A stretch of 45,817 nucleotides of DNA from Methylobacter sp. (GTDB taxonomy: Bacteria; Pseudomonadota; Gammaproteobacteria; Methylococcales; Methylomonadaceae), in the NCBI GenBank assembly GCA_030653175.1, contig JAURZV010000003.1:1-45817 (forward strand), read 5' to 3'. Each line of letters starts with the position of its first letter. The first letter of the stretch is position 1. Below, piece after piece: positions 38,739 through 45,817 of the stretch. The position numbers were made by a program, and so were the translations under genes. The notes under the pieces were generated by a model. It made no database searches. It worked only from the letters and a program-made list of their open reading frames with translations, and was not told the DNA's origin.

Positions 38739-38814
38739 GCTGGTGTAGCTCAGTCGGTAGAGCAGCTGATTTGTAATCAGCCGGTCGCGGGTTCGATTCC
38801 CATCGCCAGCTCCA
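38739..38814 (+). tRNA. tRNA-Thr (anticodon UGU)
   Basis: 76 bases with an encoded CCA. Acceptor GCTGGTG pairs with CGCCAGC (one G-U). It has D arm GCTC...GAGC, anticodon stem GCTGA/TCAGC with loop TTTGTAA (anticodon TGT), and T arm GCGGGTTCGATTCCCAT. It reads ACA and related threonine codons. It is a monocistronic unit with its own terminator. Confidence 0.96.
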
Positions 38815-38855: not shown

Positions 38856-38897
38856 TTGCCTGTTATTTTTTAATAACCAAGGTTTCGGAGTTCGTTT

Positions 38898-39302
38898 TTA
38901 CCCGCATAGCAGTTGCTCATCCTTGATTTCCAAAGCCTTGAGCCTTAGCGTCCTGGCGTCAAGTTGGAGGACTTGCAAACATCACCGTGGCAACTGCATC
39001 ACCCATTACCGCTTTCAAGCCCTCCAAAGCGCCGGTAATCACTGCGCGAAAAACCTGCCACAGTTTGCCTGCAAAACTGATGTCGGTGCTATTGCTGCAC
39101 ATGGCCTGCAGCACCCCGGCAATATAGTAGCCGAAGCTGGTAAAGCGACATTTGAAATGCCCTCACCCTAGCCCACTCCCGAATGGAGAGGGGACTTTGT
39201 TGCTTTACCAACTTCGGCTACTATATCGATTAATACGCCCTTTGCGTTTAGAAAATCCAGGGTTAGCGCTGGTAGTTCTGTAATTTTTGAGGCACGATTC
39301 AT
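38898..39302 (-). pseudogene. Small gene split by a MITE and by a frameshift
   Basis: From the ATG at 39302 the frame reads MNRASKITELPALTLDFLN, then AKGVLIDI, and enters a 99-bp inverted-repeat element. After the element (removing it and one TA copy restores the frame) it continues IAGVLQAMCSNSTDISFAG, then KLWQVFRAVITGALEGLKAV. Near 38972 it meets a stop (SPPT*). Removing one A there lets it run on as LQLDARTLRLKALEIKDEQ to a TAA at 38898-38900. So about 100 residues once existed. I do not recognise the family; the central part looks like an amphipathic or membrane-associated helix. As it stands it cannot be made. Confidence 0.65.
39125..39223. mobile_element. MITE, 99 bp, TA target duplication
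   Basis: The ends are TAGTAGCCGAAG at 39125 and the reverse complement at 39212-39223; with inner bases the arms match over about 22 positions with one mismatch (GCTGGTAAAGC vs GTTGGTAAAGC). TA flanks it on both sides, as for IS630/Tc1-type elements. The interior has CCCTCACCC...GAGAGGGG. No coding capacity. Confidence 0.8.
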
Positions 39303-39415
39303 TGAGCGCCCTATTCGAGTTTGGTTTGGTCTTCAAGTAACCGTAATTATACTCTTGTAGGGTGGCTTATTATTTATTTATCAATGTGTTGCTGCATTTC
39401 CTGAACTCCGAAACT

Positions 39416-41647
39416 TTAGTTGGAAGAAACGTTTCCAGGGTGTAGCAACCTCAATCCGTTTGCAACGACCAATAAAGAAGCTCCCGTATCGGCCGCAATG
39501 GCTTCCCATAATGTTGCAAGCCCTGCAAAAGCTAATAGTGCAAAAGCAGCTTTGATAGTAAGTGCGAAAACAATATTTTGCCGGATAATCGCCAGTGTTC
39601 TTTTGGAATGACCGATTAACCAAGGGAGCTTGGAGAGATCGTCGCCCATTAATGCAATATCCGCGACTTCTATCGCCGCATCCGAACCTAACACGCCCAT
39701 GGCAATACCCAAATTGGCCCGCCCCAGTGCCGGCGCATCATTAATGCCATCACCGATCATCGCAACCTGCCTGTATTTTTCGATCATTTGACTGACGATC
39801 TCAACTTTATCGGCCGGCAACAATTCAGCATGCACTTCATCAATACCGATTTGAGCCGCGATGTTATTAGCCGTAACCCAATTATCACCGGTCAACATCA
39901 CCAGGTGTTTGATTCCCTTTTGTCTGAGGGATTGTAAAATCGATTTGATTTGAGCACGAGGCTGATCACTGATGGCAATCAGGCCGCAAATGTGTCGGTC
40001 ATTGCCGATCGCGATAACGGTTTGGCCGGTCTGTTCAAGTGCAATCGCTTTTTCACTGATTTCAGGAACTTCCTGACTACGCTCTAATAGATAACGACGC
40101 GATCCCAGCCAGAAATCAGTGCCGTTAAATAGTCCGGTTACACCTTTACCAGGCAGAACCGTCACCTCGTCAGCGCCGGCAACACTGATACCCCGGTTTT
40201 CCGTGTATTTTAAAATGGCTTTCGCCAGCGGATGATTGCTTCGCGCTTCCAGTGCCGCAGCACGACTCAACAGTTCTTCTTCGCTATGACCATTAAAAGG
40301 GTAAACTCCAGTGACTATTGGATCACCGCAAGTCAGCGTACCGGTTTTATCAAAGGCAATAGCATTAATACTGGCCGGTGCTTCAATATAAATGCCGCCT
40401 TTGATCAGAATACCTTGTCGAGCTGCACTGGCCAATGCCGCGACAATACTGACCGGTGTTGAAATGACCAGCGCACAAGGGCAGGCAATCACCAGTAACA
40501 CCAAGGCACGGTAGAACCACTCGTTCCAGATTCCCTCTAAAAACAATGGCGGAATGATAAACACGGCCAGTGCCAAGATCATCACTACCGGGGTATAAAT
40601 GCGGGCAAACTTTTCCACCCATTGCTCGGCTTCCGCTCGCTTGCTATGGGCTTCTCCAACCAGGCGAATGATATGCGCCAAGGTGGTATCCGAGGCGATT
40701 TTTGAGGAATTGATCTCCAGTGTTCCTTCACCATTGATACTTCCGGCAAACACTTCGTCGCCAACTTGCTTGGCAACCGGCATGCTTTCACCGGTAATCG
40801 GCGCCTGATTGACCGAACTGAAGCCGCTAATCACATCGCCATCCAAGGGGATTTTATCGCCCGGCGCTACTACAAAACGGCTGCCGATACTGACTTCTGC
40901 GGCAGGTACCCTGTGTTCCTGTCCGGTTTCATCCTTGATCGTAACCGTTGAAGGCGCTAAATCCAGTAACGCTTCTACCGCATGACGGGCACGACCAATA
41001 CTCCAGCTTTCAATTGCCAGGGACAGGGAAAATAAAAAACTCACGGTTGCTGCTTCAAACCACTCATCAATGAATAGGGCACCGATGACAGCAACCATCA
41101 TCAACAAATTCATATCGGCACGCAATCGTTTCAACGCATAAAAAGCTTTAACCATCACATGCCGAGCACCGAAAACAACCGCCAGACCAAACGCGATTTT
41201 TTCAGGTAAAGGCATCGCTTGCTGAGTATGTGCGTTAAATAAGCTAGTGAGATATTCATTGATAACCTCCCAGTGTAGTGACCAATTTTCAGGGTGGCTG
41301 AGAACAGTTTGCGCATCACTAAACCCACCGGCCATAGCGATATGAATCAACATGCCGACAATGATAAACAAACCGCTGAGTGTGGTATAAATGGTCTTCG
41401 AACGGTGAAGCTGTTTTACATCAGTTTGCGCCTGACCTGTTTGCCAGCGAGTTGCTTTCATCCCGGTTGCGGCAACCGCTTTAATGATGGTTTTTTCAGT
41501 CACCGGCTCGGCGTCAGACAACAGTGTCATTCGCCCGTTTAAAACATCAAACGCCAACCTGTCGCCGCCCCCCACTATCGGGCCTATCGCGCTTTTTAAG
41601 GTTGCGACTTCTTCAGCGCAGTCCAGACCTTCGATCTTGAAAGCCAT
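39416..41647 (-). other. Module 3 of the ATPase frame: Zn/Cd/Pb-type (ZntA-like) pump
   Basis: It starts MAFKIEGLDCAEEVATLK, a normal ZntA-type N-terminus, from an ATG at 41647. The TM motif is ACPCALVISTP, the P1B-2 form. Membrane helices, TGESMP, DKTGTLTCG, SNHPLAKA and GDGINDAP are all present, and the C-terminus ends LLHPGNVSSN. As a separate protein it would have 743 residues, the family's usual length. Confidence 0.8.
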
Positions 41648-44600
41648 GCTACTCGTAGGTGTTGATGCGACTGATCGAGTGAGACCAGGTTTCTCTCCTG
41701 CACAACAATCCACGTAGGCCAAAAGACGCAAGGCATTGATCACGACGACGAGGGTCGAGCCTTCATGTATCAATACCGCCAGGCCGATCCCCGCCCAGCC
41801 AAACAACGTGGCGGGAATCAGCAATACCACCACGCCCAGCGACACCCACAGATTCTGGCGGATGATGCGCCTCGATGCGCGGCTCAAGGCCACGGCAAAG
41901 GGCAGTTTGCTCAGATCGTCGGCCATCAGCGCCACGTCGGCGGTTTCCAGCGCCACGTCGGTGCCGGCGCCGCCCATGGCGATGCCGACCGGGGCGCGCG
42001 CCATGGCCGGGGCATCGTTGACGCCGTCGCCGACCATGGCCACCTGGCCGTAACGCTGCCCAAGTTCCTCCATGGCCTTGACCTTGTCTTCCGGCAACAG
42101 GCCCGCTTTCACTTCGTCCAGGCCAACCGCGTCGGCGATGGCGCGGCCCACGCGTTCATTGTCCCCGGTGAGCATGATGGTCTTGCGGATGCCGAGTTGA
42201 TGCAGTCGCGCCAGCACCTGCTTCACTGCTTCACGCGGGGTGTCGGCCAAAGCCACGACGCCGAGAAACTGCCCGTCGGCCTGTATCAGCATGATGGTTT
42301 TGCCTTCCGTCTGGAGGCGCAATGCGTGCTGCTGAATCACCTCGGGGATGGGCTCGCCGTCAAACAACTTGGCGTTACCGATGGCTATTTTTTGCCCGTC
42401 AAATTCGGCGCGCAGTCCTTTTCCGGTAACGGCTTCAACCTCCCCGGCTTCATCCCAGATTAAACCGCGCCCCTTCGCCTCCGCCACAACCGCCTGTGCC
42501 AGGGGATGGGCGCTGCGGCTTTCCACGGCGGCTGCAACGGTCAGTAGATGTGCCTCGTCTCCGCTAACCGCGACGACATCGGTCACCTTGGGCTTGCCGA
42601 TGGTCAAGGTGCCGGTCTTATCGAAGGCGATCGCCGTTAGCACGCCGAGATTTTCCAGATGCACACCGCCCTTGATCAGCACACCGCCGCGCGCGGCGCG
42701 CGCAATGCCGGACAGCACCGCCGACGGGGTGGCGATGGCCAGCGCGCAAGGGGAAGCCGCCACCAGTACCGCCATGGCGCGGTAAAAGGCTTCGGCAAAT
42801 GGGAAACCAAACAGCGGTGGAAGCGCGATGAGCAACCCGGCACCCACCAACACGACGGGCACGAAGATCCGCTCGAAGCGGTCGGTGAATCTCTGGGTAG
42901 GAGATTTCTGCGTCTGCGCTTCGGCCACCATCTCCACCATGCGCGCCAGCGTGCTCTCCCGCGCCAGCTTGGTCACCTCGACGACCAGCGCGCCCTCGCC
43001 GTTGACCGTAGCGGCGAATACCTTGTCGCCAGGCTGTTTGTCCACCGGCATGGATTCGCCGGTGACCGGAGCCTGGTCCACCGCCGAGTTGCCCGACGCC
43101 ACCTGGCCGTCGGCGGGGATGCGCTGGCCGGGCTTGACGATCACCCGGTCGCCGCGCTGCAATTCTTCCACCCGCACCTCGATCTCAGCGCCATCCCGCT
43201 GCACGATGGCGGTCTTGGGGGCCAGTTCCGCCAGCGCCTCGATGGCCTTGCGAGCACGGTCCATGGCCATGTGTTCCAGTGCATGACCCAGGCTGAACAG
43301 GAACAGCAGCAGCGCGCCTTCTTCCCAGGCGCCGAGCGCCGCCGCGCCGGCCGCCGCGACAATCATCAGGATGTCGATGTCAAAGCTGCGGCTGCGCAAA
43401 CTCTGCCAGGCATCGCGCAGGGTGTAGAAACCGCCTGCCGCGTACGCACCCAACAAAAGGCCGAGCGCCAGATCGCGCGGTGCGCCGGCGAGGCCTGCAA
43501 GCCAGCCGGCCAGCAACAGCAAGCCGGCAACCCCGCTAAAAATAAGCTCGCGATGCTCGGCGAACCATCCGGCCTCGCGGCCTTCTTCCAGCACGGCATA
43601 GCCGAGCGCCTGGATGCGCCGGACAATCGCCGGGCGTTCGATTTTCTCGCTGTCGAATTCCAGGCGCAGGCGCTCGGCGGCGTAGCTCACCGAAGCTTCC
43701 AGCACGCCGTCCGTGCGTTGCAGGGCATGCTCGATCACCGTGGCGCAGGTGGGGCAATCCATGCCGTCGATGCGCAGGTTCTCGTGACGGTAGCGGTTGC
43801 CGAGCTTGGCACCGGCCGCTTGCGCCAGCTCGCGCACCCGGCTCACGCTGAACTGCTGCGGGTCGTAGTGCAGGCAAAGGCGGGCGATCCCGTCTTCGCG
43901 GACCAGATGTACCTTTTCCAACCCTTCGGCCTGCAGCAATTCAGTCAGCCGTCCTACGCAGGCGTCGCGCTCATCGGCGACATCCGGCAAGACCAGGGAC
44001 AAGTCCAGTTTAAGTTTTTCAGCCATGGTGCTGCTCCTTGCAGAACCCGTTGACTTTTTGTTTGCACCTAAGGGATTCAAGTCCCCATCAATCCGAATGC
44101 GCAGCAATTTCGCCGAATTCACAAACACCAGAACATCCGGCCCCAGATGCAGGAGGGCGGCTTCGATAGGACCAATCCAGCCCATCAGCGCCGCCGTGAT
44201 ACCCAACACATGGACTACGCCAACGCCCACAAATAAATTCTCTTGAATCGTGCGATAAGCGCGTCGGGCAATGGCACGAGCACTGACGATTTTAGATAAG
44301 TCATCCGTCATCAGCACTATATCGGCAGCTTCCAGCGCGGCCTGGGTGCCGCCACCGCCCATCGCAATGCCTACATCCGCCCGTGCCAGTGCCGGCGCAT
44401 CGTTGATGCCGTCACCGATCATTGCTACGCGATGCCCTTGCTTTTTTAACTCTTCGATCGCTGCTACTTTGTCTTCCGGCATCAAGTTGGCGCGCACCTC
44501 GTCCACGCCTAATTCCGTGGCCACCGCTCGTGCGGTGGCCTCATTGTCGCCGGTCAACATCACGATGCGCTTGACGCCAGTCCGTTTCAATTTCTCCAGC

Positions 44601-45817
44601 GCTTCGCGCGCACCCGGCCGTAACACATCGGCGATAAAGATGACCCCTGCAAATTGTCCATCAACGGCCACATGAACCGGTGTTTGTCCTCCGTCTTCAA
44701 TGGCCGCGGCAAGCGTTACGCCGTTTTCACGCAGCAAAGCCGCATTGCCGACCAGCACGGCGCGACCCGAGACGGTTGCTATCACGCCCCGACCTTGCAT
44801 CTGTTCATATTGGTCCGGCTCCGGCACGGCGATCTGTTTAAGCGTTGCGTAATCCACAACGGCTTTGGCCAGCGGATGCGCCGAACGGCGGTCGGCGGCG
44901 GCTGCCAGACTCAACAGTTCCATTTCAGTAAATCGTGAATCGCGTGCCTCCACGCGAACCACTTCAGCCTTGTTCGCGGTCAGCGTTCCGGTTTTGTCGA
45001 AGACCATCACATCCGCTTTGGCCAGCGACTCCAGATACAGGCCGCCCTTGACCAAAATACCGCTTCGGGCAGCACGCGCAATGGCGGCGATCATCACCAA
45101 GGGCGTCGCCAGTCCCAGTTCGGCAGGCGAGGTAAAAATCAGCAACGTGACGATGGTTCGCACGTCGCCCGTGACCATGTAAACCGCGATGAGAAATACA
45201 AAAACGACCGGAATTAGCCACGCGGCCACTTTGTCGGCGAGTTTTTGCACGGGAGCCTGCGCCGCTTCGGCGTTTTCAACCAGCCCGATGATGCGGGCAA
45301 AGGTAGTGTCGCTACCGACTTTTTCTGTCTGAATATCGACTGCGCCCGATGCGACGATGGTGCCGGCAAAAACGCTCGCGCCGATACTCTTGTCCTTGGG
45401 AAGGCTTTCGCCGGTGATGGGCGCTTCGTTGATCGATGCGGCACCGCCTACGATGCTGCCGTCCACCGGAATTTTTTCGCCGGCACGCACCAGGACGACA
45501 TCGCCGGTTCGCAGTTGCTCGACCGGAACCACGCGTTCACCGTCCGCGCCGCGCATCAGCGCGACTTGCGGCACCGAGCCGATCAGGGTCTTGATGGAAG
45601 CCCGTGCGCGATCCATATTCAAGTCGGCAATGAACTCCGCAATGAGAATAATCACCATCAGCACGGCGCCGGCGACCGTCTCGCCGCCAAACACCGCGAC
45701 CAGGGTGGCCACGGTAACAAAAATCTCGGTGCCGACCTTGCGTTCGCGTATCAGGTCGATCAAGCCGGTTTTTACCAGCGGGTATAAACCAATAGCGACG
45801 GCCAGCCACAGGATTTG
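39416..45817 (-). CDS. Three P1B-type heavy-metal ATPases in one reading frame, N-terminus beyond window
   Basis: One frame of more than 2130 codons, open to the right edge (the visible text begins QILWLAVAIGLYPLVKTG). Residues are counted here from codon TTG at 45763. Module 1 (to about 579): TGES, TM motif TSPAELGLATP, DKTGTLT (about 254), SAHPLAKA, GDGINDAP. Module 2 (580-1372): HMA domain GMDCPTC (about 667), SPCALAIATP (about 1002), DKTGTLT (about 1046), GDGVNDAP. Module 3 (1373-2115): degenerate HMA GLDCAEE, CPCALVISTP (about 1757), DKTGTLT (about 1802), GDGINDAP. So three complete P1B pumps are joined without stops. Single P1B pumps are 650-900 residues. An internal ATG with a good Shine-Dalgarno precedes module 2, and a likely one precedes module 3, so three proteins may be made instead of, or besides, one. 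Module 2 is clearly G+C-richer than module 3. Confidence 0.85.
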   Translation of the reverse strand, partial: QILWLAVAIGLYPLVKTGLIDLIRERKVGTEIFVTVATLVAVFGGETVAGAVLMVIILIAEFIADLNMDRARASIKTLIGSVPQVALMRGADGERVVPVEQLRTGDVVLVRAGEKIPVDGSIVGGAASINEAPITGESLPKDKSIGASVFAGTIVASGAVDIQTEKVGSDTTFARIIGLVENAEAAQAPVQKLADKVAAWLIPVVFVFLIAVYMVTGDVRTIVTLLIFTSPAELGLATPLVMIAAIARAARSGILVKGGLYLESLAKADVMVFDKTGTLTANKAEVVRVEARDSRFTEMELLSLAAAADRRSAHPLAKAVVDYATLKQIAVPEPDQYEQMQGRGVIATVSGRAVLVGNAALLRENGVTLAAAIEDGGQTPVHVAVDGQFAGVIFIADVLRPGAREALEKLKRTGVKRIVMLTGDNEATARAVATELGVDEVRANLMPEDKVAAIEELKKQGHRVAMIGDGINDAPALARADVGIAMGGGGTQAALEAADIVLMTDDLSKIVSARAIARRAYRTIQENLFVGVGVVHVLGITAALMGWIGPIEAALLHLGPDVLVFVNSAKLLRIRIDGDLNPLGANKKSTGSARSSTMAEKLKLDLSLVLPDVADERDACVGRLTELLQAEGLEKVHLVREDGIARLCLHYDPQQFSVSRVRELAQAAGAKLGNRYRHENLRIDGMDCPTCATVIEHALQRTDGVLEASVSYAAERLRLEFDSEKIERPAIVRRIQALGYAVLEEGREAGWFAEHRELIFSGVAGLLLLAGWLAGLAGAPRDLALGLLLGAYAAGGFYTLRDAWQSLRSRSFDIDILMIVAAAGAAALGAWEEGALLLFLFSLGHALEHMAMDRARKAIEALAELAPKTAIVQRDGAEIEVRVEELQRGDRVIVKPGQRIPADGQVASGNSAVDQAPVTGESMPVDKQPGDKVFAATVNGEGALVVEVTKLARESTLARMVEMVAEAQTQKSPTQRFTDRFERIFVPVVLVGAGLLIALPPLFGFPFAEAFYRAMAVLVAASPCALAIATPSAVLSGIARAARGGVLIKGGVHLENLGVLTAIAFDKTGTLTIGKPKVTDVVAVSGDEAHLLTVAAAVESRSAHPLAQAVVAEAKGRGLIWDEAGEVEAVTGKGLRAEFDGQKIAIGNAKLFDGEPIPEVIQQHALRLQTEGKTIMLIQADGQFLGVVALADTPREAVKQVLARLHQLGIRKTIMLTGDNERVGRAIADAVGLDEVKAGLLPEDKVKAMEELGQRYGQVAMVGDGVNDAPAMARAPVGIAMGGAGTDVALETADVALMADDLSKLPFAVALSRASRRIIRQNLWVSLGVVVLLIPATLFGWAGIGLAVLIHEGSTLVVVINALRLLAYVDCCAGEKPGLTRSVASTPTSSMAFKIEGLDCAEEVATLKSAIGPIVGGGDRLAFDVLNGRMTLLSDAEPVTEKTIIKAVAATGMKATRWQTGQAQTDVKQLHRSKTIYTTLSGLFIIVGMLIHIAMAGGFSDAQTVLSHPENWSLHWEVINEYLTSLFNAHTQQAMPLPEKIAFGLAVVFGARHVMVKAFYALKRLRADMNLLMMVAVIGALFIDEWFEAATVSFLFSLSLAIESWSIGRARHAVEALLDLAPSTVTIKDETGQEHRVPAAEVSIGSRFVVAPGDKIPLDGDVISGFSSVNQAPITGESMPVAKQVGDEVFAGSINGEGTLEINSSKIASDTTLAHIIRLVGEAHSKRAEAEQWVEKFARIYTPVVMILALAVFIIPPLFLEGIWNEWFYRALVLLVIACPCALVISTPVSIVAALASAARQGILIKGGIYIEAPASINAIAFDKTGTLTCGDPIVTGVYPFNGHSEEELLSRAAALEARSNHPLAKAILKYTENRGISVAGADEVTVLPGKGVTGLFNGTDFWLGSRRYLLERSQEVPEISEKAIALEQTGQTVIAIGNDRHICGLIAISDQPRAQIKSILQSLRQKGIKHLVMLTGDNWVTANNIAAQIGIDEVHAELLPADKVEIVSQMIEKYRQVAMIGDGINDAPALGRANLGIAMGVLGSDAAIEVADIALMGDDLSKLPWLIGHSKRTLAIIRQNIVFALTIKAAFALLAFAGLATLWEAIAADTGASLLVVANGLRLLHPGNVSSN
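41648..44026 (-). other. Module 2 of the ATPase frame: SPC-type P1B pump
   Basis: It begins with MAEKLKLDLSL at an ATG at 44026, a ferredoxin-like first domain and an HMA domain (GMDCPTCATVIEHAL). The TM motif is ASPCALAIATP, the SPC form of P1B-4 pumps (Co/Fe type). It carries all catalytic motifs over about 793 residues. The DNA is conspicuously G+C-rich, with long antisense open frames as a by-product. Confidence 0.78.
44024..44039 (-). promoter_or_regulatory. Internal ribosome binding site before module 2
   Basis: AAGGAG (44034-44039, reverse strand) lies seven bases before the ATG at 44026. This is the best ribosome binding site in the whole ATPase frame, and it suggests that module 2 can start on its own. 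Confidence 0.65.
44027..45817 (-). other. Module 1 of the ATPase frame: pump with a SPA motif, incomplete at window edge
   Basis: The visible part has the actuator (VDGSIVGGAASINEAPITGE), TM motif FTSPAELGLATP without the metal-binding cysteines, DKTGTLTANK, GDGINDAPALARADVG and two last helices. It ends in the linker LNPLGANKKSTGSARSST, which runs straight into module 2. Its metal is uncertain. Confidence 0.75.

Follow-up and report, generated by a model that had tools for sequence, protein, structure and literature searches.

P-type metal pumps are, to our knowledge, normally organized as one pump per polypeptide chain. In this study, we ask whether a locus in a Methylobacter genome encodes three such pumps in one chain, or whether it consists of three adjacent genes that no longer carry the stops between them. 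The window, by which we mean the whole stretch of DNA that was analyzed, is the entire contig C92 (45,817 bp) of an assembly of 4.0 Mb in 109 contigs, and the fusion described here is known from this single genome and single assembly. On the minus strand of the window, positions 39416–45817 form a single open frame, recorded in the list of open reading frames with 2133 codons and no stop (225.9 kDa), whose 5′ end is open at the window edge. Each catalytic motif occurs three times in this frame: TGES at residues 135, 919, and 1675, DKTGT at 274, 1066, and 1823, HPL at 314, 1104, and 1862, and GDGxND at 468, 1263, and 2022. The Pfam domains E1-E2_ATPase and Hydrolase likewise match three stretches apiece. 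Each of the three modules, called M1, M2, and M3 in the order of translation, carries the TGES, DKTGT, HP, and GDGxND motifs of the P1B-type ATPase superfamily, and no stop codon or damaged motif was found among the 2133 codons. Judged directly and without computation, a frame of this length with three motif sets is not a product of chance. Both the only PF00403 HMA match in the whole frame (residues 681–740) and the only CxxC motif lie within M2.

The sequence-only reading of this DNA had proposed three complete P1B ATPases in one uninterrupted frame, still open at the window edge, with borders near 44030 and 41650 and with about 24 helices if translated whole. The open reading frame, the motifs, and the Pfam matches bear out the first of these claims, and the frame does run off the window edge, which is also the end of the contig. 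The two borders coincide with the initial Met of M2 (44026) and with an internal Met of M3 (41647), and the helix number agrees with our models of M1 and M3 when the same is assumed for M2.

The missing 5′ end and the three modules

Using the upstream portion of the M1 gene of a relative as query, we located the missing start elsewhere in the same genome, on contig C105, whose end shares an exact 141-bp overlap with the end of C92. Joining the two contigs places the start ATG 54 codons further up, with GGAG before it and an in-frame stop upstream, and extends the frame to 2187 aa (an estimated ~232 kDa); the first 54 residues of M1 are those on C105. Upstream of M1, C105 carries, in order, genes that match the outer-membrane efflux (OEP), HlyD/CusB-type, AcrB-type RND, and MgtC families, and then, just ahead of M1, a short and broken piece that repeats the start of M2 (L135, 9833–10057). 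We call the efflux set czcCBA-like after annotated Methylomonas plasmids. The broken M2 copy points to past recombination in the island. Since the contig ends inside M1 with an exact overlap, the assembler met a branch there, and a second copy, or a strain with another M1 context, may exist.

M1 (44084–45817, minus strand) is a P1B-type pump without an HMA domain, as indicated by its motifs, its orthologues, and its structural model, with TSPAE in TM4 and HLGPD(X)5N in TM6. According to PMC8880997 and PMC10800456, P1B-4 pumps are recognized by SPC in TM4 together with HEG(G/S)T(X)5N in TM6. At these places M1 reads FTSPAELGLAT and HLGPDVLVFVN, so that SPC is absent, and in TM6 the His, Gly, and Asn are kept whereas the Glu and Thr are replaced. 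The best PDB sequence match of M1 is 7QBZ, the structure of the P1B-4 pump sCoaT; when the AlphaFold model was compared with the PDB by Foldseek, P1B pumps were closest, with the copper pump 4bbj first, then 4umw, and 7QBZ third. The model has a mean pLDDT of 79.6; within the window it shows seven helices, and its tail next to the junction (residues 576–596, pLDDT < 50) is disordered. The eighth helix would lie within the residues on C105. Orthologues of M1 in five related loci (L036, L042, L056, L152, and L167) are 93–97% identical, and TSPAE is also found in L036, L042, L056, L160, and L161, which together with M1 form a conserved P1B group with TSPAE/HLGPD in place of SPC/HEGxT. Both motifs are kept in plasmid orthologues of Cupriavidus and Shinella at ~71% DNA identity, and they are therefore a conserved variant rather than damage. 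One of these plasmid orthologues adjoins a CzcE-family gene. The cargo of M1 is presumably some divalent metal.

M2 (41714–44026, minus strand, ATG at 44026) is, by Pfam and motifs, a P1B-4-like pump with one HMA domain (DCPTC). It resembles sCoaT (7QBZ) in having SPC, in AASPCALAIAT, and HEGST(X)5N, in IHEGSTLVVVIN. It differs in carrying a classical HMA domain, the PF00403 match mentioned above, which sCoaT and many other P1B-4 pumps lack according to PMC8880997. Eight helices are assumed for M2, and in the AlphaFold model that spans the junction with M3, the M2 part (residues 1–100) has a pLDDT below 50. CzcP and CtpC are also members of P1B-4; a search for CzcP on plasmid pMOL30 had no bearing on the fusion.

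M3 (39416–41706, minus strand) is a ZntA-like P1B-2 pump (GLDCAEE, CPC, and ADTGAS) by its motifs, its model, and its plasmid homologue. It shows CPC in TM4 (VIACPCALVIST) and Asp in TM6 (AADTGASLLVVAN), the two features by which PMC10800456 defines P1B-2 and which M3 shares with the ZntA-type exporters of Zn, Cd, and Pb. It differs from them in being the third part of one chain, with its own start lost, and in having GLDCAEE, without the second Cys, where P1B-2 pumps have an N-terminal GXXCXXC. The AlphaFold model of M3 has eight helices and an HMA-like domain, and the whole protein scores above the NCBIfam ZntA-type cut-offs. The nearest plasmid relatives of M3 belong to Methylomonas; with one separate Methylomonas plasmid gene it shares 83% DNA identity, and the close separate ZntA-type genes on such plasmids stand beside RND efflux genes.

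The junctions between the modules

The sequence-only reading had left a choice between one giant pump and three genes without stops. The three different pumps in one frame are confirmed, but the choice itself is too simple, as the two junctions are built differently: between M1 and M2 a stop has been lost and the start of M2 is intact, whereas M2 and M3 are joined in frame and the start and leader of M3 are gone. In-frame stops at the junctions of relatives had been named as counter-evidence; such stops are present in the relatives that we read and absent in this genome.

Junction 1 (44027–44083, minus strand) is, by comparison with relatives, a former noncoding leader that is now read as coding. 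One such relative is L036, in which M1 and, up to the end of its contig, the first 315 residues of M2 are colinear with the window at 90.8% DNA identity. In L036, M1 closes with an in-frame TGA 70 nt ahead of the M2 ATG, and the leader contains the Shine-Dalgarno-like AAGGAG that stands in the window 7 nt before the M2 ATG (44034–44039, minus strand). Because L036 also has the same order of M2 5′ fragment, M1, and M2, the neighborhood of M1 and M2 was inherited and not made here. L167 (genome G268) has almost the same bases as the window following M1, but its TGA is preceded by one base fewer. The ancestral TGA of M1 is still present in the window, out of frame, at 44076–44078. Among the ten M1 3′ ends read (the window, L002, L036, L042, L056, L152, L160, L161, L167, and L168, leaving out the plasmid orthologue H83), the stop is kept in eight and lost in the window and in L002. 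Taken together, the alignments indicate that the M1–M2 fusion is due to a one-base length change before the stop of M1, plus changes in the leader, and that junction 1 hangs on a single base. For a random leader of the same composition, the chance of being both open and in frame is about 0.14, so that this junction could easily be an accident and is no argument for selection. As both the Shine-Dalgarno sequence and the ATG of M2 are intact, M2 need not depend on M1.

The junction-1 region was matched in three of the 237 family genomes (E ≤ 1e-30), namely the genome under study, G473, and G472, and the other genomes of the same genus gave no match at this threshold. The contig of G472 is that of L002. 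A further junction-1 search around G426 covered six genomes. In L002/L153 (~466–560, a single assembly), a different one-base change removes the stop of M1 and adds ~23 further codons, and the run-on frame terminates shortly after the beginning of the following gene, which matches the sodium/bile acid symporter family (PF01758). The similarity of the tRNA flank to the linker of junction 1 (I5) was judged to be chance.

At junction 2 (41706–41714, minus strand), where homology ends, both the stop of M2 and the start of M3 are absent. Homology to most M2 genes stops at ~41714, with a few matches extending up to seven bases more, and at 41706 the similarity to M3 of L002 sets in. The stop of M2 lies 2 to 12 codons beyond this point in the five other M2 ends compared, and the M3 genes of L002, L155, and L156 carry a short N-terminal extension, of which neither the start nor the leader is present in the window. 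Only the last residues of M2 and the first ten or so residues of M3 have been lost. The internal Met of M3 is Met in L002 and L156 and Ile in L155, and it has no good Shine-Dalgarno sequence; a separate start for M3 seems unlikely. Since the stop of M2 and the natural start and leader of M3 are gone, M3 could hardly be made apart from M2.

The start region of M3 was found in 31 of the 237 family genomes (E ≤ 1e-20), and the 32 M3 copies listed besides that of the window are all in frames of 410–857 aa. A stop-free and full-length junction 2 was seen only in the genome under study, both among the best matches, as listed, in 369 class genomes, of which 212 gave some match, and in 398 genomes of the phylum (11 matching at E ≤ 1e-25, in 13 rows). 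In a plasmid collection with 2126 matching records, none reaches 80% cover of the junction-2 query. The class genome G119 has a match over 183 of the 217 residues, which is interrupted by two TGA stops.

These data bear directly on the possibility that the fused frame is an artefact of assembly or sequencing, in which M1 would really end at its ancestral stop and M2 and M3 might be separate genes of a misassembled multi-copy island. The contig break inside M1 with its exact overlap, a sign of a graph branch, would fit this explanation, as would the truncated second M2 start upstream of M1 and the dependence of junction 1 on one base. However, junction 2 lies ~4 kb inside the contig and joins two nearly complete genes in frame, the leader at junction 1 keeps the Shine-Dalgarno sequence of M2, and no second close copy was seen among the own-genome matches, one set of which came from a search with an M1 5′ stretch only. 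Moreover, the loss of the M1 stop in L002 occurred in a different methanotroph assembly, although that too is a single one. We consider an artefact unlikely, yet it deserves to be taken seriously. We favor, and with some reserve regard as probable, a lineage-specific fusion of recent origin within a metal-resistance island that has been shuffled. It would yield an M2–M3 double pump and, probably, the triple chain as well.

Relatives, other fusions, and the origin of the modules

In the relatives examined, as the sequence-only reading had suggested checking, the modules are separate genes. Among 66 related loci in genome contigs, which were collected with six peptide seeds (one from M1, three from M2, and two from M3, so that relatives of M1 and M3 are undersampled), there is no frame with two DKTGT motifs, and four loci have none. 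A tblastn search of plasmids with the whole protein returned 1660 records at 80% cover among the 5000 best-scoring; this is not evidence of triples, because in the best 40 of the 5000 it is one place of ~2.1–2.9 kb that is matched by all three modules. A conserved triple-pump family was rejected, as no second example appeared in the related loci, in the genomes of the family, class, and phylum, or on plasmids. The fusion thus appears to be lineage-specific as far as these searches reach. A literature search, conducted mostly outside subscription papers, found no report of a tandem P1B pump, in line with the earlier remark that no triple P1B pump had been described, and a review of P-type ATPases (PMC10654040) does not mention fused or tandem pumps.

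The GC content is 0.584 in M1, 0.646 in M2, and 0.491 in M3, compared with 0.502 in positions 1–38700 of the window. Recent duplication of one pump was rejected, since subtypes, GC content, and nearest relatives differ between the modules. A phage or viral origin was also rejected: IMG/VR gave one locus with M1 (36%) and 18 loci with M2, of which L095 stands at 91% and the other 17 at 34–51%, and every one of 135 phage records is below 60% identity.

On the chromosomal side, the nine window proteins scanned include methionine synthase and formate-tetrahydrofolate ligase, and the genome, which most likely is that of a methanotroph, has a strong match to the AMO/PmoA family. A tRNA-Thr gene (TGT; 38739–38814, plus strand) separates the chromosomal block of methylotrophy genes from the 3′ end of the frame. 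An imperfect palindrome of ~104 bp (39122–39226) is situated between this tRNA gene and the frame. It is a dispersed genomic repeat with 66 matches listed in at least 38 other places of the genome, which is MITE- or REP-like. A 19-nt inverted repeat (89%; 38875–38893 and 39403–39421) flanks the stretch from the tRNA to the frame, and its right arm covers the stop of M3.

With regard to other transporter fusions, we found frames of 1672–1677 aa, in L088 (2071–7101, minus strand) and L089 (2555–7570, minus strand), in which a complete P2A-type Ca-ATPase continues into a CopA-type P1B-1 pump. The junction is stop-free in 3 of the 237 family genomes, in three genera and at 79% identity, with one copy at G544:C1:1866259-1866747; domains were scanned in L088 and L089 only. 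In several other genomes the two halves are in separate frames. This may be a conserved double pump, and it indicates that fusions of two P-type pumps have persisted in this family. The window frame is similar in that complete P-type pumps follow one another without a stop between them. It differs in consisting of three P1B modules in one genome, whereas the other fusion combines P2A with P1B-1 at an unrelated junction in three genera. Moreover, in genome G473 (L152, 5382–8366, plus strand), an EamA-type transporter is fused in frame to M1 in a protein of 995 aa. Here the same M1 gene, 93% identical, has been fused to a neighboring membrane protein, but the partner is at the N-terminus of M1 and the M1 stop is kept.

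It could be argued from such examples that the triple pump is adaptive, the fusion being kept by selection for equal amounts, close packing, and overlapping metal ranges of the pumps. The persistence of P-type fusions in the family, the EamA fusion in another genome, and the catalytic motifs and low dN/dS of all three modules would be in agreement with this. Between the window and its relatives, dN/dS is 0.057–0.138 for M1 (six relatives), 0.102–0.124 for M2 (five relatives, one over 315 codons only), and 0.089–0.131 for M3 (three relatives), the same as among the relatives themselves (0.055–0.140). The modules look conserved, although these values mostly reflect the time before the fusion. 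However, the triple fusion is present in one genome only, other genomes of the same genus lack a match to the M1–M2 junction, and nothing shows selection on the fused state. We therefore regard an adaptive origin as improbable. It is most likely that the fusion arose by chance and is tolerated, and that it is not an evolved machine. The M2 gene of L056, a related locus, is frame-shifted. That the island is decaying, with the fused frame as a chance intermediate without a working product, might be read from this gene and from the broken M2 start directly upstream of M1, but it is very improbable given 2133 codons without damaged motif or stop and dN/dS values as low as among relatives.

How the frame may have arisen and what it may produce

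In the explanation that we favor, the locus is a metal-resistance island next to the tRNA-Thr gene that contains the czcCBA-like RND set, the MgtC-type gene, the broken M2 start, and three P1B genes of different origin. A one-base length change and changes in the leader have bypassed the stop of M1, so that M1 reads on into M2. M2 and M3 have been joined in frame with the loss of the M2 stop and of the start and leader of M3. All three pump genes would share one mRNA. Ribosomes that start at M1 would make the full chain of 2187 aa with three pumps, and those that start at the Shine-Dalgarno sequence of M2 would make an M2–M3 double pump of 1536 aa.

Known P1B topology suggests that with eight helices per module, as assumed for M2, both ends of each pump and every junction would be cytoplasmic, and the joins are therefore topologically possible. 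Each module would retain a phosphorylation cycle and a metal path of its own and would send divalent metals into the periplasm, from where they may be passed on to the Czc-type system. The predicted metal ranges are Zn/Cd/Co-like for M2 and Zn/Cd/Pb-like for M3. The strongest form of this proposal, a ~232-kDa chain of ~24 helices with three working pumps, made alongside the internally started M2–M3 protein and having a carboxylate-containing SPAE/HLGPD site in M1, is possible but remains tentative, and we lean against it. If it is true, the chain would be a natural multi-metal export array in which the carboxylate site of M1 replaces a cysteine site.

What is new here is probably the arrangement, three known pump types in one frame, seen once and with a traceable and probably accidental origin. 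A natural three-pump chain would provide a test of how tethered pumps function, of whether free cytoplasmic ends are needed in regulation, and of how large multi-pump chains are inserted into the membrane. Should the fusion exist at the DNA level only, with M2 translated from its own start, the locus would be a plain record of the birth of a gene fusion by stop loss and deletion. Considered together with the Ca-ATPase–CopA and EamA–M1 proteins, it suggests that methanotroph metal islands repeatedly fuse neighboring transporter genes. We also observed a CopA-type pump with an N-terminally fused HD domain in L091 (3671–7324, minus strand; 1218 aa), in which the domains were scanned, and frames of similar length in L092 and in G477.
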